The position numbers and the translations under genes are program-made. Under the pieces are notes generated by a model that saw nothing but the letters and a program-made list of their open reading frames with translations, did no database searches and was not told where the DNA came from. A stretch of DNA of 64,000 nucleotides, taken from positions 1 to 64,000 of the forward strand of contig CALAOT010000117.1 of NCBI GenBank assembly GCA_937889545.1. The letters are read 5' to 3'. This stretch comes from an uncultured Opitutaceae bacterium (GTDB lineage Bacteria; Verrucomicrobiota; Verrucomicrobiia; Opitutales; Opitutaceae). Below are positions 26,750-55,940 of this stretch, piece after piece (the first letter of the stretch is position 1; the number at the start of each line of letters is the position of its first letter).

Positions 26750-26753
26750 CCTG

Positions 26754-27359
26754 CTAGGTCTTGGCCGTCACCGACTCCCATTTGGTCTGGTTCACCTTGA
26801 GGTCGGGATGCGAGACGAACAGGTGCCAGATGACCGCCTGGAACGCCTCGCTGTGGGGCGTGACGTTGTTGGGGTTAACGGTCGGCACGATGACGCAGGC
26901 GTCGGCTACCTTGGCCGTGTAGCCCCCGTCCTTGCCGATGATCCCGATGATCTTCGCGCCGACCTGCTTCGCCAGCTGCATGGCGGCGACCAGGTTGGGC
27001 GAGACGTTCTTCTCCAGGTTCCCGCCCCCGACCGACAGGATGAACAGGCAGTCCTTGCTGCTCAGCCTGCTGGTGCGCAGCCAATCGACGAAGACGCTGG
27101 CCCAGCCGTCGTCGTTCGTGCGCGCCGTCAGCTCCGATACGTTGTCGGTCGGGGCGTACGTCTCGATCCCCGTGATCTTCCGAAAGTCGTTCACCGCGTG
27201 GGACGCGTTGGCCGCGCTGCCCCCGACGCCCAGCATGAACAGCCGGCCCCCGTGCTCCCTGACGGCGCGCAGTTCGGCGACGCATTTCTCGCAGTCCGCC
27301 GGGTTGAGCTTGGCCACGATTTCGGCCGTTTCCTTGAGGTGTTGTGCGGAGTATGACAT
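26754..27359 (-). CDS. gmhA: SIS-domain sugar isomerase, GmhA-like, 201 aa
   Basis: A sugar isomerase (SIS) fold protein. It has FMLGVGGSAANASHAVNDF for phosphosugar binding, LFILSVGGGNLEKNVSPNL in place of the usual SGNS, and NVTPHSEAFQAVIWHLFVSH, which supplies the late Glu and His residues. The family member GmhA converts sedoheptulose 7-phosphate to D-glycero-D-manno-heptose 7-phosphate. The replacement of the typical SxSGNSxN loop by SVGGGNL suggests a divergent active site, as seen in GDP-heptose branch enzymes. ATG 27359; 4 nt before gmhB. Confidence 0.78.
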   Translation of the reverse strand: MSYSAQHLKETAEIVAKLNPADCEKCVAELRAVREHGGRLFMLGVGGSAANASHAVNDFRKITGIETYAPTDNVSELTARTNDDGWASVFVDWLRTSRLSSKDCLFILSVGGGNLEKNVSPNLVAAMQLAKQVGAKIIGIIGKDGGYTAKVADACVIVPTVNPNNVTPHSEAFQAVIWHLFVSHPDLKVNQTKWESVTAKT

Positions 27360-27409
27360 GGGATTCAGAATGCAAGGGGCCGCTTCGAATGCGAGGCGGC
27401 AATGAATCT

Positions 27410-28120
27410 TTAGCGGGTTTTTCGAAGGAGCCGGTCGAGCTCCTCCAGGCCCGCGTGCGAGCCGATCTCGTAGAAGCGCTCGGCGACCTCGAATCCGGCC
27501 AGCTGGCCCCGCGATAGGAGGGCCTTCTGGACGTCGGCCAGATCCAGGACCTTGTCCCCGGGGAACCCGTCGAATGCCGCCTTGCGGAAGACGCCGAGGC
27601 CGTAGTCGATGTGCCGCATGCCCGGGAGCCGCGTCTTCTTGTCGTAGGCCCGGATCGAGCCGTTTTCGAACCAGAGGTTGCTCGCGTCGTACTGCCCGCG
27701 GTTCTCGAACACGGTCATGAGGCCCAGCTTCCCCGACTCGATGAAGCTCTGGCCGACCGGCTGGTAGTCGATCGGCAGGTAGCTGTCGCCGTAGAGGACG
27801 TAGAACGCGTCCCCGAGCCTCGGCAGGGCGTGGATCAATGCGCCGCCGGTCCCAAGGAGCTTCGGACCGTCGAAGACGTAATCGATCCGGACCCCCCATT
27901 GCGCGCCGTCCCCATAGCGCTCGACGATCCTTTCGCCAAGGTAGCCGACGCAGACGACGATGCGGGCCAGGCCGGATTTCCGGACGAGCCGTATCTGGTG
28001 GGAGAAGAAGGGCTCTCCGGCCACCTCGACCAGGAGCTTGGGCACCTTCTCGGTGATCGGCTTAAGGCGGGTTGCGAGTCCGCCGGCCAGAATGGCCACC
28101 GGGAGTTCTGCGGGATTCAT
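27410..28120 (-). CDS. hddC: Nucleotidyltransferase, HddC-like (heptose-1-phosphate guanylyltransferase), 236 aa
   Basis: A GT-A-like pyrophosphorylase. The nucleotide-binding motif is AILAGGLATRLKPITEKVPK at residues 8-27. Then come GTGGALIHALPRLG and YVLYGDSYLPIDY with the metal-binding Asp, and ERFYEIGSHAGLEELDRLL at the end. The HddC family transfers GMP to D-glycero-alpha-D-manno-heptose 1-phosphate. Length and operon partners (hddA, gmhA, gmhB) fit. The base specificity cannot be proved by eye. ATG 28120 overlaps the acyltransferase stop by 4 nt. Confidence 0.82.
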   Translation of the reverse strand: MNPAELPVAILAGGLATRLKPITEKVPKLLVEVAGEPFFSHQIRLVRKSGLARIVVCVGYLGERIVERYGDGAQWGVRIDYVFDGPKLLGTGGALIHALPRLGDAFYVLYGDSYLPIDYQPVGQSFIESGKLGLMTVFENRGQYDASNLWFENGSIRAYDKKTRLPGMRHIDYGLGVFRKAAFDGFPGDKVLDLADVQKALLSRGQLAGFEVAERFYEIGSHAGLEELDRLLRKTR

Positions 28121-29172
28121 CCTGCGCCTGCCGGCAGCCTCCTTGTGGCGTCTCCTCCAAGGAGCGCGAATGCCCGCGCGACAACCGCGTGCACGGCGAC
28201 GCTGACCGCGAGGGTCAGGCCCAGGGCCAGGAAGATGCCCGTAAGGAGCTGCTCGTGGGTCGGCGCGGGCACGTGGAGGATCACGTGGTAGACGTACAGG
28301 TTGTAGTCCCGAATGAGGGGCTGGTGGAAGAGATAGATCTCGTAGGAGATGAGGCCGAGCAGCGAAAAGGAGGCGAGGAGGGCGCCGCCCAGGGGGATCT
28401 TCAGGACCAGCCAGCGAAACCCGATCCATGTCAGGACGAATCCAATGGCGGGCAGCGTGTAATCGCACGTGATTCCCCGGAAGAACGTGAGGTAGTAGAA
28501 ACAGATCAGGCCCAGGCCAAGGAGCAGATTGAACCTGATCTCCGCGGTCCCGGCGCCGAGCAGCCGTCCCGCGACCACGCCGGCGAAGAAACTCGGGATC
28601 CTGATCGCAAGGGAGCGCAGCCCGGCCTCATTGCCGTTGACCTGGTAGACGACCGCCGCGGTCACGGTGAGCAGCCCGGACACCGCAAAGACGAGCGAGA
28701 GGTTGTCGAGGTGCCGCCGGATGCAGGCGAACGCGACGTAGGCGGCGACAATCATCGAGACGAACCAGAACGCGTACGTGAAATCGGAGAAGGTTTCCTG
28801 CCGCGAGAAGGCATGGACGCCTGCAATGTGCTGCCAGATGCTGGACCAGGGCCTGACGATGCCCAAGTATCTGTAATGCATCCAGATGAACAACCCCAAC
28901 GCGATCCAGTAGCTGGGGTAGATCCGCAGGAAACGGCGGAGGGCGAACCTGCCGAGGGGCATCTCGGCCGACGTGAGCGCCTGCGTGAAGCCGCTCAGGA
29001 GAAGGAAGATGTCCACGCCGATCTCGCCGTGGATGGTGTTGGGGGCGCCGAGAACCCCGCAGCTGTGGTAGATGATGATGAGCAGGATGCCGACCCCCTT
29101 CAGCTCGTCGACCGCCGCGATCCTGCGGCCCGCGAAAACCGTGGGCGAAAGGTTGATTCGGACGGAGCGCAT
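28117..29172 (-). CDS. Membrane O-acyltransferase (acyltransferase 3 family), 351 aa
   Basis: An inner-membrane protein with about ten helices. The family's catalytic region is VDELKGVGILLIIIYHSCGV (about residues 20-40), with the essential His in YHS. EIGVDIFLLLSGFTQAL follows and LGRFALRRFLRIYPSYW carries the family's Arg. Acyltransferase-3 proteins add acetyl or other acyl groups to glycan sugars, often periplasmically. It sits in the heptose operon between hddA and hddC, which suggests that the heptose residue or its neighbour is acylated. ATG 29172 is used because a longer reading frame would start inside hddA. Confidence 0.85.
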   Translation of the reverse strand: MRSVRINLSPTVFAGRRIAAVDELKGVGILLIIIYHSCGVLGAPNTIHGEIGVDIFLLLSGFTQALTSAEMPLGRFALRRFLRIYPSYWIALGLFIWMHYRYLGIVRPWSSIWQHIAGVHAFSRQETFSDFTYAFWFVSMIVAAYVAFACIRRHLDNLSLVFAVSGLLTVTAAVVYQVNGNEAGLRSLAIRIPSFFAGVVAGRLLGAGTAEIRFNLLLGLGLICFYYLTFFRGITCDYTLPAIGFVLTWIGFRWLVLKIPLGGALLASFSLLGLISYEIYLFHQPLIRDYNLYVYHVILHVPAPTHEQLLTGIFLALGLTLAVSVAVHAVVARAFALLGGDATRRLPAGAG

Positions 29173-29179
29173 CCCCGGC

Positions 29180-30163
29180 CTAGTTCTGGGCCACGACCTT
29201 GGTGCCCTCGAAATCAAACCGGAAGCGGACCTCCTGGAGGCCCTTCTCCCGCATCGCGTGGCGCAGCTGCCTCTTGTCGCCCGCGTAGAACATCAGGAAG
29301 CCCCCGCCGCCGGCGCCGATCAGCTTGCCGCCCAGGGCCCCGTTCGCCATCGCGTAGTCGTACCACTGGTTGATCTGCGCGTTGCTCATCCCGGCGCTCC
29401 GCGCCTTCTTGCGCTGCCAGTGCACGTCCATCAGCATCGCGAACTCCTCGAGGTTTCCCCGCTCGAGGCTTTCGAGCGACTTGTAGCCGAGCTCCTTCGT
29501 GAAATGGAGGTTCTCGAGGATGGACGAGTCCTTCTTCTTCGAGCGGTCGTTCTGGTCCTTGAGTATCGACGAGGCGCTCCTTGAATACCCGGTGAAGAAG
29601 AGCAGCAGGTTGTCCTCGAGGTTGTACAGCGTCTCCTCCGCGATCTTGCACGGCCGGAACTCGACCCGGCCGTCCTTGTGGAAGGTGAACGCGGTGATCC
29701 CGCCCACGGCCGCGATGTACTGGTCCTGCTTGCCGATGGGCTCGCCGAGCCTGTTTATCTCGATCTCGCAGGCCTGCTCGGCCAGCTCCGCCGGCGAGAC
29801 GAGGTTCTTCTTGAAGGTGTGGAGCGCCTTTAGGAGCGCCGTCGTGAAGCTGCCCGACGACCCGAGGCCGGTCCCCCCCGGGATGTCGGCCATGGAGGTG
29901 AGCTCGATGTGCGGGTCCGTTACGCCCGTCAGCTTGAGCGCCTCGCGCACGATCGGGTGCTCGATCTGGTCGACCGAGGCGACCCGCTCCAATTTCGAGT
30001 ACTTGACGATGATCTCCTCCTGGAAGGTCGTGTGCTTGGTGATGTACACGTACTTGTCGATGGCGGCGGCAACCAGGAATCCGCCGTATTCGCCGTAGTA
30101 GCTGGCAAGGTCGGTGCCTCCGCCTCCGAGGGAGACGCGCAGGGGCGAGCGTGTGATGATCAT
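29180..30163 (-). CDS. hddA: GHMP kinase, HddA-like (heptose 7-phosphate kinase), 327 aa
   Basis: Phosphorylates C1 of D-glycero-alpha-D-manno-heptose 7-phosphate with ATP. SPLRVSLGGGGTDLASYYGE at the N-terminus is a signature of the HddA/FKP-type GHMP branch. The ATP loop is DIPGGTGLGSSGSFTTAL. The late Gly-rich motif is LIGAGGGGFLMFYA. Length fits. It starts at ATG 30163, overlapping the Gfo/Idh stop by 4 nt, and the acyltransferase starts 7 nt after its stop. Confidence 0.9.
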   Translation of the reverse strand: MIITRSPLRVSLGGGGTDLASYYGEYGGFLVAAAIDKYVYITKHTTFQEEIIVKYSKLERVASVDQIEHPIVREALKLTGVTDPHIELTSMADIPGGTGLGSSGSFTTALLKALHTFKKNLVSPAELAEQACEIEINRLGEPIGKQDQYIAAVGGITAFTFHKDGRVEFRPCKIAEETLYNLEDNLLLFFTGYSRSASSILKDQNDRSKKKDSSILENLHFTKELGYKSLESLERGNLEEFAMLMDVHWQRKKARSAGMSNAQINQWYDYAMANGALGGKLIGAGGGGFLMFYAGDKRQLRHAMREKGLQEVRFRFDFEGTKVVAQN

Positions 30164-31401: not shown

Positions 31402-34400
31402 GTGCCGACACGTTCTCCAGAAACCGAAGGGATCTCCCTGATTGACCGCGCGGCCTCCCACCGCCTGGTGCGGTTCGCGTGCGTGGGCGGGGTCGTGACG
31501 GTCTTCTTCATGGGGTTCAACGCGCTGCTCGCTCGCGGATTCGGGTTTGGCGCGCAATCCGCGTTCCTCGCCTCCTATCCGCCGGCGCTGGCCCTGCATT
31601 TCACCCTGAACAAGATCTGGACGTTTGGGGACCGGCGCGCGACGAGCGCAAGGCACGTCGGGGACTACCTTTTCTCCGTGGTCGTCACGTTTCTCATCCA
31701 GTGGCCGGCCTTCATCGCGCTGCACGGGATGTTGAGCCTTCCTGGATGGGTCGCCGCCGGCGGCGCGAACGTCATCCAGATGACGGCGAGCTATCTGTTC
31801 CTGAGGCACAGGGTGTTCAAGGCCGTGAAGGACGAGCATCCGTCCGAATCCCTTTCCTCCTGGCTTCGCCTGGCGACCTTGGTCGCCGCGGTCGGCGCCG
31901 CGGCGTTCATTGCGTGGACCGTCTCCACGACGGGGTACAGGCTCGAATTCCATGGTCCCAAGCGGGACTATTACAACCTGCTGGCGCAGGGGTTCCGGAA
32001 GGGCCACCTGTACATGGACGCCGCGCCGGATCGCGCGCTCCTGGCGCTGCCTGCCAGCGAGCGCCCGGGCAACGCGCCCTTCCTGCTCGATGCGAGCCTG
32101 TACCGCGGCCACTATTACCTGTACTTCGGCGTCGTCCCGGTCGTGCTGCTCTACCTTCCGTACGCGGCCCTGACCGGCCAGGGGCTTCCCGAGGCGGGGG
32201 CCGCGCTGTTCTTCGCCTCGGCCGGCCTGATCTTCGCGGCGCTCTGGTGGTTCGACGCCCGCCGCCGCCTCTTCCCAAGGTCGGGAGCCGCGTGGGCCCT
32301 GGTGAGCCTCCTCGCGATCGCCCTCGGCTCGGCGATGCCGTCGACGCTCCGGCGCCCCATCTTCTACGAGGTGGCGATCACGGCGGGTTATGCGTTCATG
32401 ATGCTGGCGCTCTGGGCATTCACGCGGGCCAGGTACGCGAGCGAGCGCAGGACGGCCTGGCTTGTTCTTGGGGCCGTGGCCGCGGGGCTTGCGGTCGGCT
32501 CGCGCGCCAACCTTGCGCCGTCGTGTCTTGTGCTTGTTGTTTGCGGCGCGGCCGCCGCAGGGACGGGCCGCAGGCGCGGCATGGCTTCGGCCCTTTTCGC
32601 GGCCGGGCTGGCATTCAGCGCCGTTATCGCGGCCCTTGGGGGCTACAATGCCGCCCGCTTCGGCGACCCGCTGGAATTCGGCCACACCTATCAGATTGGG
32701 GTGGAGCCGAAGCAGTTGTTCCACCTGGCGAACCTCGGGCACAACGCCCGGCTCTACTACCTGCGGCCGCCGGCGCTGAACGGCTTTTTCCCGTTCATGG
32801 CGCCCGCCCCCGAATCGATCAAGCCGGACGACTACGTGGGCCGCGAGAGCGCGCATGGCGAATGGGTCTGGCTGCCGCTGGCGATCGCCGCCCTCGGGGC
32901 TTGGATAGGGATGTCACGGGGCCGCGCCAGGGAGGGGCAGCGGGAAGCCAAATGGATCGTTGGGCTGCCGGCGGCCGTGTTTGCCGTGAATTTCATCGTG
33001 ACCGCGTCCGTTGGAGTCCGGGCGAACCGCTACATGCTCGATTTCCATCCGATGCTGGTTCTTGCGGTGCTCGGCGTTCTCGGGATGGGCCTGGCTGGGG
33101 CGGGGCGGCTCGCGCGCCTGGGCTCGCTTGCCGCCGGGGCCGCCATCCTCGTAGCCGTTGTTTTCAACATGCTTGGGAGCATCCAGGCGCAGGGATTCTT
33201 CCGGTTCACCGACCCGATTGTCTACTCGCGCGTTGCGGCCGCCGCCGACCATCTCGTGTGGCCGCTTCTGCGGGCGGAGCCAACTGTGGGCGACCGGGTC
33301 GTCCGCCTGCGGTGGCCCTTGCACCCGACCCGGGCGGCGCTGGAGCCGGTCGGCGCGGCGGGCACCCCCGGATACGACGATGTGCTGTGGGTCGAGTACG
33401 GAGCCGGGGAGCAGGCCCGTCTTGTCTACCAATACTGGGAATACGGCCGGGCATTCGGGCGATGGTTTGCATTCGAACCCGGAAAGACTTCGGAGATGAG
33501 GGTATCCGGGGCGTTCCTGCTGCCGAGGCCGGGCCATCCCTGGTTCGGCGGGCGGCCGATGGACGAGCAGGAGATCCTCAAGCGATCGCTATGCGTGTCG
33601 GTGGACGGCGTGACGCGGTTCGAGCGCGACGTCCCGAGCCACGACTCGTCCCCGGCTCTGCAGTCCTGGGGCGCGTGGAGGCACGCCGACGGCACCGAAC
33701 ACGCATTCAGAGGCGCGATTCTGGGCGTCAGGAGCGAGCCCGTGCGGGATCCGGTCGCCCTGCGACAGGCTGCGGACTGGGGGACGGTCCGCATGCGGCT
33801 GGAATTCTCCCCGCGCTGCCTGGGGACCAGCGAGCCGCTTCTCCAGAGCGGATCGCCGCAGGCGTTCGACACCCTTGTCGTCCGCTATGTCCGCCCGGGT
33901 TTCGTCCAGCTGATCCACGACCAGCTCGGGGGCGGGGCCCGTTCGTCGCGCGAGTTCGCGGTGGACTATTCCGGCGCGCAGCATGTCGAGGTCGAGCTGC
34001 CATTCGCGGACGACCGCGTCGATTGGCTGGCGGATGGCCCGGCCTTCCGGGACAAGGACACGGAGCGGATGCGAGTCACATGGAACGGCCGGGTCGTATT
34101 CGAACCCGAGCTTCCGCCCGTTCCCGCCGACAGGCGCAGCGTCGCCCTTGGAGCGAATCTGCTGAACTCAAGCGTGGCGCGGGCCACGTTCGAGGGAATC
34201 CTGGAAGAGGAGCCGCCCAGGAAGGCGCTGGGGGCCATCGGGGCGGGAAGCCTCGAGTTCAGGCCTGAGGCCTCGGTCGCGTTCGAGGACGAGCATGGGA
34301 CTCTCGTTCGATTCGACCGGGACGACGGCAGGGCGGCCGGGCTCGCCTGGCGCCGGGGCGAAACGGCCGGCAGCGTGTACCTGGGCTGGACGGAGGGGGG

Positions 34401-35145
34401 GATATCCACGTGGTCCAGCCGTCCGGTCGCCGGGGTGAGGGGGCCGATCACCGTGAGCCTGTCCAGGGACGGGGCGGCGATCGGGGACGTATCGGCACGC
34501 GGGGATCCTGGTTCGCTTGGGCGCCTGGTGGTCGAGAAAGGGGCTTCGCCGGTGCTGGCGCAGCGCACGAGTTTCTTTTCCGCCGGTTCGGTGCGGGCGC
34601 ATGCCTCCGGCGGCGGCGCATGGTCCGGGACGGCGCTCGTGGGGGCCCCCGGCACGGGAAGCGCCAGGTCATCCGCCGCGCAGCCTCCGGCGCTTCCCGG
34701 CAGGATCCGCCTGAGCTTCCTGACGCCGAGGCAGGGCCGGATCTCAAGCTCGCCCCTGGTGGAGGCGGGCAGGGCGGGGGCTGCCGACTCGCTCTACCTC
34801 CGGGGTCTTGCCGACGGCCGATACGTTGTCGGGCTCGATCACTGGTCCGTGGGCGCCGTCGAATCGGCGCCGTTCGACCTGGCAGATGGCGACATCCACA
34901 CGATCGGGGTCGAGATGGCGTCGCTCGATGCCGGCAGGCAGGCCCCCGGCGGCGCGGTCAGGATCTCAGTGGACGGGCGCATGGTCATGGATCGCGTCAC
35001 TGCGCTTTATGCCGTGCTGCCCGGGGAGGTTGTGTTCGGGGCAAATCCACTGGGCATGTCCACAAGCGGGAGCCTGTTCGAGGGCGACCTGATAGTGGTC
35101 CGCACGCACCAGGCCGCCGAGGACCTGTTTCCCGGGAACCGGTAG
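31402..35145 (+). CDS. Giant membrane protein: GtrA domain, GT-C-like helices, four LamG-like modules, 1247 aa
   Basis: Residues about 20-140 are a GtrA-like four-helix domain (LVRFACVGGVVTVFFMGFN, then LHFTLNKIWTFGDRR), the family that flips polyprenyl-phosphate sugars. Residues about 155-620 form a second polytopic region with a luminal loop reading KRDYYNLLAQGFRKG, like a GT-C enzyme. The remaining 620 residues are periplasmic and consist of four beta modules; at least three end in a 'GANxL...F.G' strand pair. A flippase fused to its own transferase and binding modules would be self-contained. The start is unclear (GTG 31402 chosen; GTG 31339 possible). A homologue without the GtrA part lies at 38301. 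Confidence 0.72.
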   Translation: MPTRSPETEGISLIDRAASHRLVRFACVGGVVTVFFMGFNALLARGFGFGAQSAFLASYPPALALHFTLNKIWTFGDRRATSARHVGDYLFSVVVTFLIQWPAFIALHGMLSLPGWVAAGGANVIQMTASYLFLRHRVFKAVKDEHPSESLSSWLRLATLVAAVGAAAFIAWTVSTTGYRLEFHGPKRDYYNLLAQGFRKGHLYMDAAPDRALLALPASERPGNAPFLLDASLYRGHYYLYFGVVPVVLLYLPYAALTGQGLPEAGAALFFASAGLIFAALWWFDARRRLFPRSGAAWALVSLLAIALGSAMPSTLRRPIFYEVAITAGYAFMMLALWAFTRARYASERRTAWLVLGAVAAGLAVGSRANLAPSCLVLVVCGAAAAGTGRRRGMASALFAAGLAFSAVIAALGGYNAARFGDPLEFGHTYQIGVEPKQLFHLANLGHNARLYYLRPPALNGFFPFMAPAPESIKPDDYVGRESAHGEWVWLPLAIAALGAWIGMSRGRAREGQREAKWIVGLPAAVFAVNFIVTASVGVRANRYMLDFHPMLVLAVLGVLGMGLAGAGRLARLGSLAAGAAILVAVVFNMLGSIQAQGFFRFTDPIVYSRVAAAADHLVWPLLRAEPTVGDRVVRLRWPLHPTRAALEPVGAAGTPGYDDVLWVEYGAGEQARLVYQYWEYGRAFGRWFAFEPGKTSEMRVSGAFLLPRPGHPWFGGRPMDEQEILKRSLCVSVDGVTRFERDVPSHDSSPALQSWGAWRHADGTEHAFRGAILGVRSEPVRDPVALRQAADWGTVRMRLEFSPRCLGTSEPLLQSGSPQAFDTLVVRYVRPGFVQLIHDQLGGGARSSREFAVDYSGAQHVEVELPFADDRVDWLADGPAFRDKDTERMRVTWNGRVVFEPELPPVPADRRSVALGANLLNSSVARATFEGILEEEPPRKALGAIGAGSLEFRPEASVAFEDEHGTLVRFDRDDGRAAGLAWRRGETAGSVYLGWTEGGISTWSSRPVAGVRGPITVSLSRDGAAIGDVSARGDPGSLGRLVVEKGASPVLAQRTSFFSAGSVRAHASGGGAWSGTALVGAPGTGSARSSAAQPPALPGRIRLSFLTPRQGRISSSPLVEAGRAGAADSLYLRGLADGRYVVGLDHWSVGAVESAPFDLADGDIHTIGVEMASLDAGRQAPGGAVRISVDGRMVMDRVTALYAVLPGEVVFGANPLGMSTSGSLFEGDLIVVRTHQAAEDLFPGNR
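33286..35142 (+). repeat. Four tandem LamG-like beta modules in the GtrA-fusion protein
   Basis: Module borders by eye: 33286-33783, 33784-34248, 34249-34701 (most divergent) and 34702-35142. Recurrent features are an opening 'R.R..F/W', a central strand ending in Y or W followed by an acidic loop (LVYQYWEYG, LIHDQLGGG, VVGLDHWSVG), and a closing strand (ALGANLLNSS...FEG, VFGANPLGMS...FEG). The pattern matches concanavalin/LamG-type sandwiches. Borders are approximate. Confidence 0.6.
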
Positions 35146-35156
35146 CACCGGGCCGG

Positions 35157-35987
35157 CTAAGCCTGCCAGCGAAGGCCCCTGTCCTCGGGGACAATCCGGC
35201 GCAAGGTGTAGACATCGCTCGCCGCCAGGGCTTCCTTGTTCTTGGCCAGACCCGGCCATGGATCCCAAGGGGCGCTCAAAAGCCTGCCGCTGATGCCGTC
35301 GCTCTCCGGGGACAGAAGCCATTCGACGAGGTCCAGGGCCCGCTCGAGGGGGGCGCCTCCGGCGTCCTTCTGCTTGAGCGCCGCCTGGTATTCGGCCTCG
35401 CCGGCGACCGAAGGGCCCAGCGCCAGGACCTCCTCGGTCAAGCGGGTGTGGATTGCCCCGGGAGCCACGGCATTGATGTCGAGCGCAGCCGACTTCTCCT
35501 CCTCCGCGATCGTCTCGACGAGCCTCGCGACGGCGGCCTTCGCCGCTCCATAGGCCGAGAACCTGGCGCGGGCCTTCGTCGCCCCGCCGCCCGAGAAGCA
35601 CACGATCTTCGCGCGTCGGGGCACGCGGGAGAGAAGGGGGTGAAACGCGCGGATCGCGTGAAACGTCCCGTCCAGATTGGCGCGCACGGTCGCGCCCCAG
35701 CGGGCGGGGTCGGCCGTCATCGCGCGTCCGATCTCCCCCTGGAGCCCCGCACAGGTGACGAGCCCGTCCACGTGCGGCCACGCCCGTTCCACCTCCCGGG
35801 CGGCGCGCTCCAGTGCATCCCATTGCGCCACGTCGCAGCGCGACGAGCGGAACCGGCCCTTGTGCTTCCCCTCGAGATCAGACTGGTCCGACCGGGCCAG
35901 GCCCCAGACAAGGTGCCCGCGGCCGATGAGGCGCAGGACGAGGCCGCGCCCTATGCCCGAGCTGCTCCCTGTGACGACGAGGTTCAA
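35157..35987 (-). CDS. Short-chain dehydrogenase/reductase, 276 aa
   Basis: A classical SDR. TGSSSGIGRGLVLRL at residues 6-20 is the TGxxxGIG cofactor motif, LVTCAGLQGEIG replaces the usual NNAG, SAYGAAKAAVARLVE has the catalytic YxxxK, and INAVAPGAIHTRL is the PG motif. Strand 2 is followed by LARSDQSDL, a Ser/Arg-rich loop that favours NADP. The start seems to be TTG 35987. It converges with the giant gene on its left (11 nt apart) and follows the small anchored protein by 12 nt. A role in sugar or lipid modification is only guessed from context. Confidence 0.8.
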   Translation of the reverse strand: MNLVVTGSSSGIGRGLVLRLIGRGHLVWGLARSDQSDLEGKHKGRFRSSRCDVAQWDALERAAREVERAWPHVDGLVTCAGLQGEIGRAMTADPARWGATVRANLDGTFHAIRAFHPLLSRVPRRAKIVCFSGGGATKARARFSAYGAAKAAVARLVETIAEEEKSAALDINAVAPGAIHTRLTEEVLALGPSVAGEAEYQAALKQKDAGGAPLERALDLVEWLLSPESDGISGRLLSAPWDPWPGLAKNKEALAASDVYTLRRIVPEDRGLRWQA

Positions 35988-35999
35988 GGGGCGGATGCG

Positions 36000-36494
36000 T
36001 CAGTAGTTGAAGCGTGGGACGGCATAGTCGGGCAGGACTCGCGGAGCCTTGCCCTCCTTCTCGGGTGAATGGTCCAGGATCCAGAAGGCATCCACCCGCG
36101 GATACTTGAAGCTGACCTCGTCGCCGAGGAGGATCTCAAAGCTGATGCTGGTGGAGGCCCGGCTCTCCGTGCGCCGCACCGACACGATCCGGAAGCGCGT
36201 GCCCGCCTTGATGACGTCGAGAATCCTGACATCGGGGAATCCGGCGCCGATGCTCCTGGGGTCCACGGTCTCGGGAAGCGCCGGCACCGTCGCCCTCGAG
36301 GCGATCAGGGGCCAGTCGCTGTTGTCCTTCTTGAACTTGAAAAGGTAGCAGTCGTGCTCGAGGAAGTACTCGCGCCCGGGCAGCGAGCTGTAGGCGGGCA
36401 GCCCGTTCACATACGAGACCTTTGCCGCCAGGGACTGCCAATAGAGGAGCCCGACGATGACGATGGCCGCCACGGCGGCGATGACCCATTTCAT
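36000..36494 (-). CDS. Small membrane-anchored protein of unknown function, 164 aa
   Basis: A single N-terminal helix (VIAAVAAIVIVGLLYW, residues about 4-19) is followed by an exported beta-rich domain. The domain includes SSLPGREYFLEHDCYLFKF, one Cys, and a tail DYAVPRFNY. The G-x4-L-x2-D spacing inside GREYFLEHD recalls a small group of verrucomicrobial 'GDYxxLxxD' proteins, but I cannot confirm membership. ATG 36494 precedes the helix directly. It lies immediately downstream of the TnpB-like gene on the same strand and 12 nt before the SDR, so it probably forms a bicistron with the SDR. Confidence 0.5.
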   Translation of the reverse strand: MKWVIAAVAAIVIVGLLYWQSLAAKVSYVNGLPAYSSLPGREYFLEHDCYLFKFKKDNSDWPLIASRATVPALPETVDPRSIGAGFPDVRILDVIKAGTRFRIVSVRRTESRASTSISFEILLGDEVSFKYPRVDAFWILDHSPEKEGKAPRVLPDYAVPRFNY

Positions 36495-36550
36495 TGCGGG
36501 CGAATTAACCGGCGCGCCCGGGGCTTGGCGACACTTTATACACAACGCCA

Positions 36551-38011
36551 TTAGTCCGCGTCGGAACTGACCCTCAAGCACAGTATATGAAGGTCATGAC
36601 CGAACGGCAATGACGCCCCCTCGCGAGGCTCGTAACGGAGGACTTTCGACCTGGGGTTGACGAGCGGGGCGAGGCGTGGGTTCCCGGGCGGGAGCTGGGG
36701 CCGCAGATCGGCCCGGGAACGGCGGCGTGCATCGGCCGCCTTGGGTTGGAGCTGGCTCCAGACGCTTTGCCAACCCCCGAGGGCGGGCCCCTTTCGGGGC
36801 TTGGCCCGCGCGCCATCCTTCCGTCGGCGGCGCGCGTTGGGCTTCGGGAGCTGCGCAGCATCTTTCTGCGGAGCGGAAAACCTGGCAGGCCAAATCGCCC
36901 TGCGGCCGAGTTCAACCGCCGCGCAGGCCGGATCTGGAACACGCAGGACATCAGCCCAGAGGTGGTTGCCCAGTTTCGAGGAAAAGGCACGGTTCTCCTC
37001 CGCATGGGCGATACCGGCGGCCTGCAAGCGCCTTATGAGCGGCTCCAGGAGGCCACGGCGGAACCACACCTGGTTGATCAAGCGGTTATACCGCCTGCCC
37101 TTGCCGTGGTCCTTCGGCCCCAACGCTAGCCGCTCCGTGACGACGGCGGACACCCGGTAGTGCTTCGCCAGAATAGCCACTTTCTTCGCTAAGATTGCCA
37201 GTTCGTGGCGGCGTTTGTGATTGTGGGCCAACGAGCGGCGATCGTCCGAGGCGAACCCGAGGCGCCGGGCGAAATCCGAGTACTCGAACACCCCCCAGGC
37301 CACGCACCGGAATGCACCCGGTCCTGTATGGCCGTGTTCAACCACAGCCCATCCCAGCCTTGCCGGGTTCAGGTCAAGTGCCAGCACCCGGTTGGCGATG
37401 CCGCATGCAGCAGGCATCGGCGGCTCATTCCAACTCAGGGCGATTTCCGCCGCGTTGATCGTAACGGTGAAAGGAACGTCCCGGAGGGTTTCGCACCGGG
37501 CCTGCAGCTCGATCAACCGGCGCCGGTACTCGCGGCTCTTTCGGGAAAGGCAAAGCTTGATTGGGAAGTCCCGGCCGTCCGGCCCATGGTAGATCACCCG
37601 GTCAGAGGCGATATCGAGCGTCACCAGATGGTTCCCTCCCTGCAGGCCGTAACTCTTTGCGTGTCCCTCGACATAAAGCGGCATCAGCATGGCGCTTCGC
37701 CACTCCTCGCGACTCATCCTGCCTTGGGCACGGTCAAGGAAGGCTCGCCTCCCGCCGAATACCACCTTGCCGCCGGGATGGCGCGAAAACAGTGCGCTGG
37801 CCTTTTTCATTCCGGAGAGAGTGAGCCATGTATGTAATCCCTGGCCGACGGGATGGGCTCGCAGCGCCGCATAGAGGTCGCGCTGCGCCATGCCGGCTAC
37901 CAAGCACCGATAGGCGGAGCGGATCAACCGCCCCTGGCGTCGCCGCTGGTCCGCGAGCACCTCAGCGAAACCAGCGATTGGCTCATAACGCAGTTTGATT
38001 GTGCGGGTCAT
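36551..38011 (-). CDS. TnpB-like RuvC nuclease lacking the zinc finger, 486 aa
   Basis: An IS200/IS605-type OrfB relative. The RuvC fold is recognisable: RVLALDLNPARLGWAVVE (D213), AVVTERLALGPKD (E293), and VPDPACAAVELGRRA with D360 as candidate third acid. AEENRAFSSKLGNHLWAD corresponds to the 'NPAYTS.IG...Y' block of TnpB proteins that lack the four-Cys finger. No CxxC pair is present. The N-terminal 200 residues would be the REC/WED region. Residues 380-486 are Arg/Pro-rich and repetitive in composition, where tnpB genes often overlap their guide RNA. No TnpA is present nearby. TnpB enzymes are RNA-guided nucleases. ATG 38011. Confidence 0.7.
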   Translation of the reverse strand: MTRTIKLRYEPIAGFAEVLADQRRRQGRLIRSAYRCLVAGMAQRDLYAALRAHPVGQGLHTWLTLSGMKKASALFSRHPGGKVVFGGRRAFLDRAQGRMSREEWRSAMLMPLYVEGHAKSYGLQGGNHLVTLDIASDRVIYHGPDGRDFPIKLCLSRKSREYRRRLIELQARCETLRDVPFTVTINAAEIALSWNEPPMPAACGIANRVLALDLNPARLGWAVVEHGHTGPGAFRCVAWGVFEYSDFARRLGFASDDRRSLAHNHKRRHELAILAKKVAILAKHYRVSAVVTERLALGPKDHGKGRRYNRLINQVWFRRGLLEPLIRRLQAAGIAHAEENRAFSSKLGNHLWADVLRVPDPACAAVELGRRAIWPARFSAPQKDAAQLPKPNARRRRKDGARAKPRKGPALGGWQSVWSQLQPKAADARRRSRADLRPQLPPGNPRLAPLVNPRSKVLRYEPREGASLPFGHDLHILCLRVSSDAD

Positions 38012-38060
38012 CTCGATCCTGCTCGAAAGGTTTCGGTCTTCTCAATCCACCATAGTAGGC

Positions 38061-38087
38061 GTTCAAATGAATGGCGTTCATCTGAAC
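38061..38087. repeat. Imperfect palindrome upstream of the TnpB-like gene
   Basis: An 11-bp stem with one mismatch (GTTCAAATGAA against TTCATCTGAAC) and a 5-nt TGGCG loop. The half-site GGCGTTCA also occurs as a direct repeat with 15-bp spacing. It could be an element-end hairpin or an operator; a 10-bp palindrome CTCAATTGAG follows at 38108-38117. The region 38012-38300 holds no gene that I can see. Confidence 0.5.
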
Positions 38088-38300
38088 GGTATCAAGGAAA
38101 AAATGCTCTCAATTGAGCCCGTATGCAGTCATCAGCCCAGGCGATGGGTCGAAACCCCCGATTTCCAGTTCCTACCACGCCGTACCCCCGCCGTTTTGGG
38201 CCCTGCGTTCGTCACGAGCATTTTGCCGCAGGCGGCCCGCATCGCCGCTCGATTGGGCATCTCGGCTAACAATAGATGTTGATCCAGCGTGTCGGGACTT

Positions 38301-41213
38301 ATGTCGTCGTGTATAGAAAAGAACTTGAACGGTTTGCTCTGCCTTTCCGGAATGTACCCGTCGCTTCCTTTGACCCGCAAGGTATGGCCGTTCCTGGCGT
38401 CCTTCGGCCTGCGCGAGCGGACCCTGTTCCTTGTGGCCGTGGCGATCGTGCTGGGAGCATACGCCTACCTGAACGTCAAGGCGACCGTGCCCGTGCCCGA
38501 CTCCGTTCCCCATTCGTATTACCAGCTTCTCACCGAGGCGTTCTTTTCCGGCAGGACGTACATCAACCTGGAGCCCGATCCCCGGATGAAGGCGCTCCCG
38601 GATCCATGGGCGGGGGCCCAGGGCGTGCCGCGCGCGCACGATGCGACCTACTATGACGGCAGGTACTACATCTATTTCGGGGTGGGCCCTGTGCTGGCCC
38701 TCCTTGGGCCGTGGCGCCTGCTGACCGGGACCTATCTGAGGGACGGGACGGCAACCGGGGTTTTCTGCGCAGCGGGCTTTCTCCTAGCGGCGTTTTTCTA
38801 CCTGCGGTGCAAGCGCCGCTATTTTCCCGGGATCGCACCGGAGTGGACCTTTCTTGCCGTGCTGGTCCTTGGCTTGGGCTCGTTCATCCCGTTCGTGATC
38901 AGCAGCTCGAGGATCTACGAGGTGCCGATAACATGCGCATTTGCGTGCTGCATGCTGTCCGCGCACGCCATCCTCTCGGCGGCGGCGGCGGCCGAGTCGA
39001 GGGCCCGCAATCTCTGGATCCTCGTGGCGAGCGCCGCATGGGGGCTGGCGGTGGCCTCGCGCCCGAATTATGTCTTCGGATTCATCCCCCTGTGGATCAC
39101 CACGGGCCTGATTTTCCGGCGCATCCGGGGGGAGTCCAGGCCCCTCGCGGCCGCGGGGCTCTGGATCGCCGCCATCGCACCGGCCGTCCTCGTCTGTGCC
39201 GCCATCGGCCTCTACAACTACGCGCGCTTTGCGAATCCGCTCGAGTTTGGGACCACGTACCAGGTGTCGGCCATGGACATGCGCCGCACGAATCTTTTCG
39301 CCCTTTCAAATGTCGGCCAGTCGCTCCGGGAATACCTTTTCAACGGAGTCCACCGCTCCGCCTATTATCCGTTTCTGAACCAGGACATCGCCGTTTTCGG
39401 AGTCATCCCGTGGTCGCCGTTTTCCCTCTTGGCCCTCGGGCTTCCCCTGACGCTCCTCCTGCGCCGGATGCGCGACAATATCTGGGCTCCCGTGCTGGGA
39501 TTCCTTGTTGCGGCATCGCTGTGCAATTTCGCCACGCTATTGCCGCTGCCCTTTGCCAACGGGCGCTATGAGGTCGATTTCCTCCCGTCGGTGATGCTCG
39601 TCGCGCTGCTTGTCGCCTCCGTCGGTATCTCGGCTATTGGCGGCGCGCCCCGATGGGCCAGGTCGGCCGCGGGGCTGGGGATCCTCGCCGCCCTTGCGCT
39701 GTCGCTCATCGACTCGGTGGGAAGCGCCCTGCCGGCGGTCGGATCCGGTTCCGGCGTTCGCGCCGCCGCGCGCCTCCTCGATCTTCCGGCCGAGGGGATT
39801 GAGCGCCTGGTCGGAATCCGGCAGGGCCCGGTCGAATTCGACGTCGAGTTCGCGGACCGTCCCAGGGGGCGCCGGGAGCCGCTGGTCGCCACCGGCGGCA
39901 GCGGCGACTGCGTGTTTGTCGAATACCTGGGCGGTGGGGAGGCAAGGTTCGGATACTTCCACCTGGGGGCGTCCGGGCCCCTGAGCGCGCCGGTCTCCGT
40001 GGGCGCCGGACGCCACAGGCTCCGCGTCGACCTGGGCGGGCTCTACCCGCCGGCCGAGCACGCGGCGTTCGAGGACTGGACGGACGAGGAGATCGCGGTC
40101 CTAAGGCGCAGGGTCGAGGTGAGTCTGGACGGCACAACCGTCCTCAGGGCTTCGTCGGCGTTCTATCCCTCCGACCCATGGCAGACATCGATCGGGTCCG
40201 CCTCGGTTCCCGGGCAGATGGAGGGCAAGTTCTCGGGGCGGATCGCGAACGTCTCCAGGCTGGGGATCCCGGAAAGGAGCGACGTTCCGGGCGGATTGAT
40301 GACCGGGCCCGTCCGGCTGGTCGCGCGGCTTCCCGAATTCCGTGCCATCGTCGGCCAGCCGCTGGTGAGCACGGGCGTCCACGGCGCGGGAGACCTGGTT
40401 TATGTCTTCTATCTCGCCCCCGGAAAGGCGCGCTTTGGCCACGACTGCTGGAATTACGGCCTCTTTGAGACGGAGCCCGTGCTCTTCGATCCAAACGAGG
40501 ACCAGGTCATCGAGATCGACATGGATTCGCTTCACGCCGTGCCCAACGGCGGAATCCGCCCGTTCAAGCTGCGCTTCAACGGGCGCGACATCGCGTCAAA
40601 CGTGGGGCTCTGCAATCCTTCGACGCCGGAGGAGGTGGCCTTTGGCTACAACGCGATCCGCGCCAGCACGGCCGAGGTCATTTTCAGCGGGCCAAAGCTC
40701 GACCCCGAGAGGCTGCCGTCAATGCCCTCCGGGGAGCCTCCCGCAGGCGGCGTGCACATGGTCCTGAAGCTTCCCAGCGAGCGGAACCGCGGGCCGGAGC
40801 CGCTGCTCGTGACGGGCCGGGAGGGCGCGGCGGACTTCGTGTACCTTTCCTATCCGGACGCCGGCCACGTGCAGATCGGATACGACCACTGGGGTGTGGG
40901 GGGACCCATCAGCGCCAAGATCGCCGTGCGCGGAGGCGAGAACCTTGAGGTCGAGGTGAGCCTTGGGTCTCTCCACTACGAGGCGGATCCGCAGTGGGCC
41001 GCGCTGAGCGCCGCGACGCGCGAGCGGCTCGCCTCCACCGTCGTCGTGCACGCCAATGGCGCAAGGGTTCTCGAGGCCAGGGCCAGCCCCTACGCCTGCG
41101 GGCCGGGCGAGATCCACATCGGTGCCAATCCCCTCGGGGGATCGACCTGCGGTCCAAAATTCGGGGGCGCGATTGTTTCAACCCAAAGGATCGGGGTCCT
41201 TTACCTTAGGTAG
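38301..41213 (+). CDS. Giant GT-C-like membrane protein with three LamG-like modules, 970 aa
   Basis: After about 30 residues of uncertain N-terminus come roughly ten helices. The first, FLVAVAIVLGAYAYLNVKA, is followed by a luminal loop PHSYYQLLTEAFFSGRTYIN and DGRYYIYFGVGPVLALLGPW. The 31402 protein shows the same layout ('GHYYLYFGVVPVVLLYLPY'), so the two are paralogues; this one lacks the GtrA domain. The C-terminal 460 residues hold three periplasmic modules with FGYFHLG, FGHDCWNYG and IGYDHWGVG motifs. ATG 38301 is preferred; ATG 38352 and GTG 38289 are possible. The UGM-like gene starts 6 nt after its stop. Confidence 0.7.
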   Translation: MSSCIEKNLNGLLCLSGMYPSLPLTRKVWPFLASFGLRERTLFLVAVAIVLGAYAYLNVKATVPVPDSVPHSYYQLLTEAFFSGRTYINLEPDPRMKALPDPWAGAQGVPRAHDATYYDGRYYIYFGVGPVLALLGPWRLLTGTYLRDGTATGVFCAAGFLLAAFFYLRCKRRYFPGIAPEWTFLAVLVLGLGSFIPFVISSSRIYEVPITCAFACCMLSAHAILSAAAAAESRARNLWILVASAAWGLAVASRPNYVFGFIPLWITTGLIFRRIRGESRPLAAAGLWIAAIAPAVLVCAAIGLYNYARFANPLEFGTTYQVSAMDMRRTNLFALSNVGQSLREYLFNGVHRSAYYPFLNQDIAVFGVIPWSPFSLLALGLPLTLLLRRMRDNIWAPVLGFLVAASLCNFATLLPLPFANGRYEVDFLPSVMLVALLVASVGISAIGGAPRWARSAAGLGILAALALSLIDSVGSALPAVGSGSGVRAAARLLDLPAEGIERLVGIRQGPVEFDVEFADRPRGRREPLVATGGSGDCVFVEYLGGGEARFGYFHLGASGPLSAPVSVGAGRHRLRVDLGGLYPPAEHAAFEDWTDEEIAVLRRRVEVSLDGTTVLRASSAFYPSDPWQTSIGSASVPGQMEGKFSGRIANVSRLGIPERSDVPGGLMTGPVRLVARLPEFRAIVGQPLVSTGVHGAGDLVYVFYLAPGKARFGHDCWNYGLFETEPVLFDPNEDQVIEIDMDSLHAVPNGGIRPFKLRFNGRDIASNVGLCNPSTPEEVAFGYNAIRASTAEVIFSGPKLDPERLPSMPSGEPPAGGVHMVLKLPSERNRGPEPLLVTGREGAADFVYLSYPDAGHVQIGYDHWGVGGPISAKIAVRGGENLEVEVSLGSLHYEADPQWAALSAATRERLASTVVVHANGARVLEARASPYACGPGEIHIGANPLGGSTCGPKFGGAIVSTQRIGVLYLR
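39825..41210 (+). repeat. Three tandem LamG-like beta modules in the 970-residue protein
   Basis: Modules at 39825-40304, 40305-40751 and 40752-41210, each about 150 residues. Each begins 'G/V-P-V-x-h-x-h', reaches a PLVxTG...D.V.V.Y block (PLVATGGSGDCVFVEY, PLVSTGVHGAGDLVYVFY, PLLVTGREGAADFVYLSY), then FGYxHxG. Each closes with a strand ending in F.G (KFSGRIANV, EVIFSGPKL, KFGGAIVST). The regular period shows internal duplication. Confidence 0.7.
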
Positions 41214-45136: not shown

Positions 45137-46084
45137 TCATGCGGGGCCCGACCTGCCGCCAAAGCCCTCGGCCCGGTCGACGATGAATCTCGGGCGGGCG
45201 CGGACCTCCTCGTAGATCCGCCCGATGTACTCCCCCAGGATCCCGACGCTGATCAGCTGGATGCCCCCAAGGAAAAGGATCAGGATGACCAGGGTCGGGT
45301 TGCCGACGGGAAACGGGAAGCCGCACAGCTTCATGATCAGGTAGGCGAGCGCGATCAGGAACGATGCCCCCGCGATCACGAAACCGAGCTGGGTGCTGAG
45401 CGTCAGGGCGTAGGTCGAAAAGCAGAAGATCCCGTTGAATCCGATCCGCAGGGACCCGAAAAACCGGTTGTACTTGGTCTCCCCGGCGAACCGCGCGGGG
45501 CGCTCGAAGGGCAGCAGGTACTGCCTGAAGCCAACGACCGCGACCATGCCGCGCAGGAAGCCGTGGCACTCGCGCAGCCTGACGACCTCGTCTGCGACCC
45601 TCCGGGACATGAGACGGAAGTCGCCGGTGTTCGGGGGGATCCCCACGTCCGCGATCTTGTTGATCACCTTGTAGCCGGTGTCGGCCACGAGCCTCTTGAC
45701 CCAGGGCTCGCCCGTCCGGCGGGTGCGCTGCGGCAGGACGACGTCGTAGCCCTCGCGCCACTTGCCGACCATCTCGGCGACCAGCTCGGGGGGGTCCTGC
45801 ATGTCGACGTCCATCACGATGATGGCCTCGCCCGAGGAATACTGCATCCCGGCGAGGCTGGCCATCGGCTGGCCGAACCTGCGCGAGAACTTAAGAAGCT
45901 TGATGCGGTCGTCCCTCGCGCGGTGCTCCAGGATCACGTCCTCGGTCCGGTCGGGCGAGGGGTCCATCGCGAATATGATCTCATAGTCCTGGGTGATGCC
46001 GCCGACGATGGTGCCGATCCTGCGGATGAACTCCGGAATGTTCTTCTCCTCCCTGAATACGGGTACGACTAGGCTGAGCAGCAT
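45137..46084 (-). CDS. GT2 polyprenyl-phosphate glycosyltransferase, ArnC/GtrB-like, 315 aa
   Basis: A membrane-anchored GT2. SLVVPVFREEKNIPEFIRR at the start, a metal site MDVDMQDPPELV, KLLKFSRRFGQPMASLAG, and two C-terminal helices (FVIAGASFLIALAYLIMKL and LVILILFLGGIQLISVGIL) followed by GEYIGRIYEEVRARP. This is the layout of GtrB, ArnC and PglN-like enzymes that load a sugar onto undecaprenyl phosphate. It would feed the adjacent 1217-residue membrane protein. ATG 46084. Confidence 0.92.
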   Translation of the reverse strand: MLLSLVVPVFREEKNIPEFIRRIGTIVGGITQDYEIIFAMDPSPDRTEDVILEHRARDDRIKLLKFSRRFGQPMASLAGMQYSSGEAIIVMDVDMQDPPELVAEMVGKWREGYDVVLPQRTRRTGEPWVKRLVADTGYKVINKIADVGIPPNTGDFRLMSRRVADEVVRLRECHGFLRGMVAVVGFRQYLLPFERPARFAGETKYNRFFGSLRIGFNGIFCFSTYALTLSTQLGFVIAGASFLIALAYLIMKLCGFPFPVGNPTLVILILFLGGIQLISVGILGEYIGRIYEEVRARPRFIVDRAEGFGGRSGPA

Positions 46085-53761: not shown

Positions 53762-55105
53762 CTAGAGATAGCTGATGTCCATCGGCAGCTGGGCGATGCC
53801 GTAGAAGGGCAGGGCGCCCGAGCCGAAGTTTCCCACGTTGAGCGGCCCGAGGCCGCCGATCCTGTCGTAGAAAGCGCCCACGTTGGGATTGTCCTCGTCA
53901 AATTCGGCGGCATCGAGCGACAGCGTGTAGGCGCCGGGCTGGAGGGAGAGAGCTATCCTGAACTCCAGCAATATCTCCTCGCCCTTGGACAGGGCCGGCA
54001 GCGGAAAGCGCAGCTGGGGCGTCCCCGCGGCAAAGACCAAGTTGCCCATCCTGTCGTGGAGCTGGATCCCGGCCGACGGCCTCTTGATTTCGGCGTTCGC
54101 CCTGAGGTGCATCCGGACGGCCGCGCGGTGCATCATCTCGAAATCCCAGGTCGCCGCGCCGTGCCCGTCGACCACCACGGCGGCCGCGATCTCAAGGGCC
54201 TTGTCCCCGTGCCGCGACTTCGCCGTGGAAAGGATGTCGCCCGACCGGACGGAATTGAGCACCGCCGGATTCACGGGGGGGTGCTTCCCCGCGACGGACT
54301 GGCCCGACTTCATCGAGACCTTGTGCAGGTTGAAGTACCTGCTGACGCAGTCCTCCGGGACCCCGTCGAACATGAGGCTCCCCTGGTTGAGGAGGAGCGC
54401 CCGGTCACAGAGCGACTGGACGGCCCCCATGTCATGGGAGACGAAGATGAGCGTGGCGCCGCGGTGGACGATCTCGCGGATCCGCTGGAAGCATTTCTGG
54501 GAGAAGAAGACGTCGCCGACGGCGAGCGCCTCGTCGATGATCAGCACGTCCGGCTGGACGTTCACGGCGACCGCGAAGGCGAGCCTCATCATCATGCCCG
54601 AGGAGTACGTCTTGACCGGCTGGTCGATGAATTCGCCTATGTCGGCGAAAGCGGTCACCTCGTCCATCCGCGTGTCCATCTCGGCGTGGGTGAACCCGTA
54701 GATCGCGCCGTTGAGGAACACATTCTCCCTCCCGGTGAAGTCCGGGTTGAAGCCGCTTCCGAGCTCGAGGAGCGCCGAAATACGGCCGCTGGTCCTCACG
54801 GAGCCGGCCGTCGGCATCAGCGTACCGGCGATCAGCTGGAGGAGCGTGCTCTTGCCCGAACCATTGCGCCCGATGATTCCCGTTGCCTCGCCGCGGCGGA
54901 TGCAGAAGCTCACGTCGCGCAGGGCGTAGAAATCGCGGAACCTGCTGGAGGCATGGCGCGCCAGCGCGCGGCGCGCAGAGGACCCCTTCGGCAGCAGCGC
55001 CGATGCGGCCTCAAGGAACGGCACGGTGAGGCGCGAGGACGGGCTCTCCCAGATCCTGTAGGCCTTGGTGAGGCCGCCGACCTCGATTAGGGGTTCGCTG
55101 GACAT
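53762..55105 (-). CDS. ABC transporter ATPase with C-terminal glycan-binding domain (Wzt/TagH type), 447 aa
   Basis: Residues about 1-260 are an ABC ATPase: Walker A GRNGSGKST (about 78-86), signature TYSSGMMMRLAFA, Walker B VLIIDEALAVGD and SHDMGAVQSL. Residues about 285-447 are a beta domain (LQPGAYTLSLDAAEFDEDN near the end), as in Wzt proteins that recognise the finished O-antigen before export. ATG 55105 is chosen; a longer frame reaches to 55138. It starts 16 nt after the permease stop. Product recognition by the C-terminal domain is known for the family and likely here. Confidence 0.93.
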   Translation of the reverse strand: MSSEPLIEVGGLTKAYRIWESPSSRLTVPFLEAASALLPKGSSARRALARHASSRFRDFYALRDVSFCIRRGEATGIIGRNGSGKSTLLQLIAGTLMPTAGSVRTSGRISALLELGSGFNPDFTGRENVFLNGAIYGFTHAEMDTRMDEVTAFADIGEFIDQPVKTYSSGMMMRLAFAVAVNVQPDVLIIDEALAVGDVFFSQKCFQRIREIVHRGATLIFVSHDMGAVQSLCDRALLLNQGSLMFDGVPEDCVSRYFNLHKVSMKSGQSVAGKHPPVNPAVLNSVRSGDILSTAKSRHGDKALEIAAAVVVDGHGAATWDFEMMHRAAVRMHLRANAEIKRPSAGIQLHDRMGNLVFAAGTPQLRFPLPALSKGEEILLEFRIALSLQPGAYTLSLDAAEFDEDNPNVGAFYDRIGGLGPLNVGNFGSGALPFYGIAQLPMDISYL

Positions 55106-55121
55106 GGTTGGGAGGTGCCCC

Positions 55122-55940
55122 TTAGACCACGTCGGCAAAGGCCGGCCGGAGCCTCATAAACACCCAGCGGCCGGCAAGGAGTACGGCAAGTCCCGCGGCG
55201 TACGTGTAGCCTAGGTGCATTGCGTTGACGGGCATGCCCCAGAGCACCACTTCGCGGGCCAGCACCACGGTCTGGAGGAAGGGGTTCCACTTGAGGATCG
55301 CCCACAGGTTGGCGGGAATCCGGCTGACCGGAAAAAAGACCGCGCTCGAATACAGCACGATCTGCGCGAAAAAAGGCATCACCTGGGCGAGATCGCGGTA
55401 GAAGACGCCGAGTGCCGCAAAGAGCCATGCGAGTCCCGCGGTAAGCATGAGAAGGGGAATCAGGATGACCGGCAGCCATGCGAGGCCCGCCAGGCTGAGG
55501 CCGCTCCCGAAGATCAACGCGCCGCCGAGCGCAAGGACAAGACCGATGGCCAGGTTGAACCACAGGCCCCCGGAATGCGACAGGGGCAGTATCTCAAGGG
55601 GGAAGACGACCTTCTTCACGAGACTGGTGTTCCCGACGATGAGGAGCGGCGACGTCCCCAGGATGTCCGCGACCAGCATGTAGAGGGTCAGCCCCAGGAA
55701 CATGACCATGGCGAAGTCCGTCTCGGTTTCCACCTTGGGGTCGCGGAAATGACCTTTGAAGATCTGTCCAAAGACGACGTAGTAGATGCCAAGCATCAGC
55801 ACGGGGTTGAGCACGGCCCAGATGATGCCGAGGTAGCTGCCGCGGTAGCGGGATTCAACGGCCCTAACGGTGAACTGCCACCAGAGATCGCGTTTCCGGG
55901 CAATGCCTGAGAAGGGCGAGGCTGTTGCTGGGGCGCTCAT
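55122..55940 (-). CDS. ABC-2 polysaccharide export permease (Wzm/TagG type), 272 aa
   Basis: Six helices, amphipathic N-terminal stretch (LWWQFTVRAVESRYRGSYLG), then YYVVFGQIFKGHF and a late SSAVFFPVSRIPANLW, all standard for O-antigen or teichoic-acid exporters. The length fits. It is the first gene of a pair with the Wzt-like ATPase. ATG 55940. It sits immediately beside a lower-GC stretch that starts at 55941. Confidence 0.94.
   Translation of the reverse strand: MSAPATASPFSGIARKRDLWWQFTVRAVESRYRGSYLGIIWAVLNPVLMLGIYYVVFGQIFKGHFRDPKVETETDFAMVMFLGLTLYMLVADILGTSPLLIVGNTSLVKKVVFPLEILPLSHSGGLWFNLAIGLVLALGGALIFGSGLSLAGLAWLPVILIPLLMLTAGLAWLFAALGVFYRDLAQVMPFFAQIVLYSSAVFFPVSRIPANLWAILKWNPFLQTVVLAREVVLWGMPVNAMHLGYTYAAGLAVLLAGRWVFMRLRPAFADVV

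Follow-up and report, generated by a model that had tools for sequence, protein, structure and literature searches.

The window analysed here, i.e. the whole 64,000-nucleotide stretch of DNA from an uncultured Opitutaceae bacterium, encodes two giant paralogous membrane proteins, and we consider it likely that both are GT-C membrane glycosyltransferases belonging to a polyprenyl-phosphate-sugar (GtrA/GtrB/GT-C) system, in which the acceptor glycan is held by tandem LamG-type modules. Mycobacterial cell-wall enzymes already provide the outline of this architecture; what differs here is the LamG-like module family itself, its ordered tandems, the occurrence of the same module on several transferase cores, a family-wide expansion and the fusion to GtrA.

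Two paralogous membrane proteins

Both open reading frames are uninterrupted at the coordinates given below, with alternative in-frame GTG starts at 31339 (protein 1) and 38289 (protein 2). A search of protein 2 against its own genome returned protein 1 at E 3e-51, together with more copies, and this, with about 11 transmembrane (TM) helices, bears out the paralogy and the common polytopic core that a preliminary description of this DNA had proposed. The two proteins are laid out as follows:

31402..35145, + strand: giant protein 1, 1247 aa; GtrA domain, predicted GT-C core, three LamG-like modules and one degenerate stretch
31471..31818, + strand: GtrA (PF04138) domain, putative polyprenyl-P-sugar flippase; residues 24-139 of protein 1, E 5.7e-10
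31894..33258, + strand: predicted GT-C core of protein 1 (core HMM; homologous to the modelled core of protein 2)
32089..32091, + strand: conserved Asp230 of protein 1, first external loop, candidate catalytic base (alignment)
33298..33723, + strand: LamG-like module 1 of protein 1 (HMM, 104 bits)
33781..34203, + strand: LamG-like module 2 of protein 1 (HMM, 115 bits)
34204..34698, + strand: degenerate or unrelated stretch of protein 1 in the slot of a further module (1.3 bits)
34699..35091, + strand: LamG-like terminal module of protein 1 (HMM, 114 bits)
38301..41213, + strand: giant protein 2, 970 aa; predicted GT-C core and three LamG-like modules
38445..39791, + strand: predicted GT-C core of protein 2 (core HMM, AlphaFold models, structural comparison)
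38640..38642, + strand: Asp114 of protein 2, first external loop, nearly invariant acid (53/56 cores)
38658..38690, + strand: G.YY.YFG..P motif of protein 2, residues 120-130 (alignment)
39825..40247, + strand: LamG-like module 1 of protein 2, core-proximal type, without the DxWG...N set
40305..40697, + strand: LamG-like module 2 of protein 2
40746..41177, + strand: LamG-like module 3 of protein 2, terminal type, GYDHWG ... GANPLGGSTCGPKFGG

The PF04138 match on protein 1 spans profile positions 1-117 and, at E 5.7e-10, exceeds the curated cut-off; at the level of sequence this GtrA domain, which had been placed ahead of the core in one copy from the outset, is certain. Pfam returned nothing else for protein 1 beyond one sub-threshold PMT match, and protein 2 had no match in either Pfam or NCBIfam. 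A phmmer search of the whole protein against the PDB gave no match, comparison of the core profile with PDB sequences gave chance matches only, full Pfam scans gave no match to the Emb/Aft arabinosyltransferase families, and no core was found in the viral contigs searched.

The modelled core has a GT-C fold

AlphaFold models were built from shallow alignments (8 and 6 rows, drawn from the window and related-locus sequences) and reached moderate mean pLDDT values of 63.7 and 63.3, with a core-only pTM of 0.73 and part of the core below 50. Compared with the PDB, the core model matched 49 GT-C-type entries at Z 10.1-17.2, the next unrelated row falling to 5.8; the best matches were Pmt4 (17.2), ArnT (17.1), OST/Stt3 (17.1) and AftB (16.9), with EmbB at 14.4, and the remainder included ALG3/9/12, PglB, AglB and PimE. 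The model of full-length protein 2 recovered the same GT-C list as the core alone. Chance Z scores of up to 13 are possible for helical proteins, but the uniformity of the GT-C list and the sharp drop in Z below it are unlike chance. Foldseek likewise placed GT-C structures in its top rows for the core, although weakly (E about 1e-3). On these models the core fold is that of a GT-C glycosyltransferase, as the preliminary description had anticipated.

Nine hydropathy segments, together with two model helices in one loop, account for the TM helices of the core, whose positive charges lie on the same side as the N-terminus according to both hydropathy and the model, indicating that the N-terminus is inside and the C-terminal modules are outside. 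With about 11 TM helices and positively charged inside loops, the modules would thus lie on the periplasmic side. The expected G.YY.YFG..P loop is present in both giant proteins (DGRYYIYFGVGP; RGHYYLYFGVVP), and its residues Tyr123, Tyr125, Gly127 and Pro130 are 96-100% conserved across 56 cores, as are Arg252, Asn304, Arg307, Pro355 and Arg420-Tyr421. A conserved acidic loop residue, another feature looked for, is found as Asp114 in 53 of the 56 cores (95%), its position in loop 1 being derived from hydropathy and the model; in the subfamily with an N-terminal module the loop acid is Glu.

It seems to us quite improbable that the core is instead a GT-C-fold protein without transferase activity, e.g. 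a polymerase/ligase-like or flippase-like membrane protein. Such a reading draws on the fact that no curated family matches the core well (Pfam PMT and PMT_2 matches across cores are weak and rare), on the modest Foldseek E values, and on the position of the core acid, which, as we read the alignment, lies later in the loop than the canonical GT-C acid just after TM1. However, every structural match above Z 10 is GT-C-type and nearly all are enzymes, the loop acid is nearly invariant, with its replacement by Glu in the N-module subfamily, and the cores have GtrA partners.

Tandem LamG-like modules of position-specific type

The modules, each of about 145 aa, are arranged in tandem at the C-terminus of both giant proteins. 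HMM searches located them at residues 509-649, 669-799 and 816-959 of protein 2 (122-162 bits) and at residues 633-774, 794-934 and 1100-1230 of protein 1 (104-115 bits), using an HMM whose training set included both giant proteins; independent support comes from recurrence of the module in 50 of 200 genomes of the same bacterial family. The count of three modules first proposed for protein 2 thus stands, whilst the four proposed for protein 1 reduce to three plus one degenerate stretch. In the latter, residues about 935-1099 (165 residues) retain a co-linear module trace of 1.3 bits, with an hhalign probability of 5%, and on these values a fourth full module was rejected as unproven. The same degenerate stretch is present in the orthologue L009.

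In Foldseek searches the module models matched laminin LG4-5, neurexin, Gas6, agrin and galectins, with E values down to 5e-10 (laminin, neurexin), and in VIA-align they reached Z about 10 against ConA-like domains and galectins. When a profile of 45 modules was compared with the PDB the LamG region of agrin was the top match (E 0.0023); Pfam LamG families gave no match to the same 45 modules. The modelled fold is a LamG/ConA-like beta-sandwich, which agrees with the jelly-roll, lectin-like modules originally suggested.

A tree of 172 modules requires 3 changes of the label "first after the core", versus 30.6 when shuffled, and 7 of the label "terminal", versus 29.6, whereas protein labels change at least as often as they do in shuffles, i.e. 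modules do not cluster by protein. Recent module duplication inside each protein was rejected because position labels cluster strongly and protein labels do not; by the same pattern, the tandem order is old and its members are not equivalent. Terminal modules keep the W of DxWG in 35/36 cases, the N in 36/36 and the G in 35/36. First modules have in common a GSLyPP..P motif and are missing the DxWG/N set, W being rare and N present in 9/37. Judged by these sequence patterns, the terminal module, with its D-x-W-G...N set kept, appears the likelier glycan-binding unit, and the core-proximal module, from which the set has been lost, is probably a structural or docking piece.

This non-equivalence also bears on a further proposal, which we regard as highly improbable, namely that glycan chain length is set by the tandem modules acting as a ruler or a processive ladder. 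The variation in module number per core, from 0 to 5, would suit it, as would the role of the EmbC C-terminus in arabinan chain extension, for which PMC3044687 cites an earlier study, but the first, middle and last modules represent distinct ancient types and not equivalent rungs.

Distribution and architectures

In this genome the core profile found ten places, two of which are half-genes at contig ends, corresponding to about nine core genes; contig C87 of G011, the genome of a relative, carries about 16 core/module family genes in 100 kb. When the architecture was sought across Verrucomicrobiota, as the preliminary description had proposed, the module was detected in 5 of 241 genomes sampled across the phylum, all 5 in the window's own family, and the 50 positive genomes among the 200 from that family represent 19 of 49 genera. 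Among the Verrucomicrobiota sampled, the module has so far been found only in this one family, the Opitutaceae; the bare core is more widely spread. A contig search with protein 2 returned three loci, in two Opitutaceae MAGs only; among named relatives, the closest are MAGs of this family recovered from palsa samples. In the literature searched, no description of the architecture in Verrucomicrobiota was found.

Among 55 full cores, 0, 1, 2, 3, 4 and 5 modules occur in 12, 8, 11, 18, 5 and 1 cases, respectively, and the 12 module-free cases indicate that the core as such does not require modules. In three loci (L040, L067 and L087) the core is preceded by a module flanked by two additional N-terminal TM helices, and L069 holds a second GtrA-core-module fusion. 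One to four modules also follow YfhO-like or PMT_2-like membrane proteins, and in L060:9619-11460 a single TM helix is followed by three modules. The product of L044:67-2094 has the N-terminal unit of L040, L067 and L087 (a TM helix, a LamG-like module and a second TM helix) followed by a soluble domain that by eye is SGNH/GDSL hydrolase-like, so that the module is here joined to a possible glycan-modifying enzyme. Separately, the core copy at L022:715-3315 has no LamG modules and carries C-terminal TPR repeats instead.

A broader and more tentative reading, which we hold to be possible though doubtful, is that the Opitutaceae have evolved a periplasmic glycosylation toolkit specific to the family and modular in build, with one LamG-type module shuffled, in ordered tandems, among unrelated membrane transferase cores, i.e. 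the family's own GT-C core, YfhO-like and PMT_2-like proteins and possibly the SGNH-hydrolase-like protein.

Genomic context and partner genes

All 11 GtrA genes in the fetched loci are fused to, overlap or lie at most 13 bp from a core/module gene; they represent 10 distinct loci, and random placement would give 1.2 such cases. Of 16 GtrB-like GT2 genes, 10 have a core/module gene within 150 bp, where 1.5 would be expected. The window contains the following related features:

45137..46084, - strand: GT2 enzyme of the GtrB/ArnC/PgfS kind (polyprenyl-phosphate sugar synthase)
53762..55940, - strand: ABC glycan exporter; ATPase with Wzt_C sugar-binding domain at 53762-55138, ABC-2 permease at 55122-55940

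The GtrB gene lies 3.9 kb from protein 2, the nearer giant gene, on the opposite strand, and its product is the probable donor-making partner of the giant proteins in the same locus. Together with heptose-nucleotide, GT2, GT9 and methyltransferase genes, the Wzt_C exporter and the GtrB-like GT2 mark the window as a surface-polysaccharide locus.

Further genes in the window were noted in passing. Those at 26189-30097 (- strand) resemble the nucleotide-activated D-glycero-D-manno-heptose pathway (HddA, GmhB, GmhA, HddC-like), with scores below NCBIfam equivalog cut-offs. Adjoining the GtrB/ArnC-like GT2 gene, 46110-49763 (- strand) encodes a polytopic protein of 1217 aa whose C-terminal part is large and soluble; the protein has no Pfam match and falls outside the core and module families by HMMs. 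A 778-aa protein at 58980-61316 (- strand), with a weak YfhO-tail match, is possibly another large membrane transferase of the locus. Between the giant genes, a 486-aa ORF (36551-38011, - strand) is RuvC/TnpB-like by eye and had no match in Pfam, PADLOC or PDB sequences; further copies in the same genome and in three relatives, one 90% identical and others degenerate, suggest a mobile element.

LamG folds bind proteins, lipids and Ca2+ as well as glycans, and the modules could instead bind proteins or peptidoglycan, or pack transferases into assemblies, leaving the core to transfer sugar alone. We judge this rather unlikely. Protein contacts are indeed a frequent role of LamG folds, the structures nearest to the modules being those of laminin, neurexin, agrin and Gas6; 12 of 55 cores dispense with modules altogether, and the carbohydrate-binding module (CBM) of the GT136 enzyme ORF12 proved dispensable under the conditions tested (PMC11127046). 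Nevertheless, the modules occur on several distinct membrane-transferase cores as well as on a lone TM anchor, their loci are full of glycan genes and adjoin GtrA/GtrB, and an aromatic/Asn set is kept in the terminal module.

Comparison with known systems and proposed mechanism

The statement in the preliminary description that no described enzyme has this layout does not hold, since EmbA/B/C, AftD, which is a GT-C transferase with periplasmic CBMs, and GT136 have already been described. EmbA/B/C (GT53) and AftD combine a GT-C core with periplasmic CBMs of beta-sandwich fold; a similar layout is predicted here for the giant proteins, whose modules, however, belong to a LamG-like family of their own, with up to four or five in tandem. 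The C-terminal domain of EmbC is a lectin-like CBM that binds di-arabinoside and resembles CBM6/36 (PMC3044687). EmbB has two CBMs, one of them anchored by a pair of additional N-terminal TM helices (PMC7341804), the layout also seen in L040, L067 and L087.

GT136 ORF12 of Citrobacter youngae likewise has a GT-C core and a C-terminal module, in a locus with a CBM-bearing Wzt exporter, and its purified CBM binds the acceptor O-polysaccharide (PMC11127046). Compared by description, GT136 has a single Ig-like CBM and a MATE flippase, whereas tandem LamG-like modules and GtrA are found here. In GtrA/GtrB/Gtr(type) serotype conversion, genes for a GT2 undecaprenyl-P-sugar synthase, a GtrA flippase and a GT-C transferase also stand side by side; unlike that system, the transferase here has LamG modules, is fused to GtrA in two loci and belongs to a family with up to about 16 genes per contig. 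With LamG/concanavalin A-like modules (laminin, agrin, galectin, CBM40) the present ones have the predicted fold in common, and a weak profile match to agrin, but they match no Pfam family and are attached to membrane transferases.

GtrA, GtrB and a GT-C enzyme constitute a known pathway for sugar addition outside the membrane (PMC11127046). In the mechanism that we infer for the giant proteins as GT-C transferases, a GtrB-like GT2 enzyme would make the polyprenyl-phosphate sugar donor inside the cell and a GtrA protein would flip it, flippase and transferase being one chain in protein 1. At the outer face of the inner membrane the GT-C core would then take the sugar from its polyprenyl-phosphate carrier and add it to a glycan acceptor, which may be O-antigen, capsule or some comparable polymer of the cell surface. 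In the periplasm this acceptor would be held by the C-terminal tandem of LamG-like sandwiches, the core-proximal module docking or supporting and the terminal module binding; the precedent for such a role is the binding of acceptor glycan by the CBMs of EmbC and GT136 (PMC3044687, PMC11127046).

Implications

The combination of a GT-C core with glycan-binding modules, as a principle, would thus be extended from a few systems to a large, expanded family in Verrucomicrobiota that brings with it a new module family and a fusion of GtrA to the transferase. The split between core-proximal and terminal types, together with the 0 to 5 modules found per core, offers a natural series in which the role of the module in acceptor choice, processivity or length control may be explored. 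Should the more tentative toolkit reading also prove correct, docking and binding positions would set acceptor choice or glycan length for at least a dozen paralogous transferases in each genome.
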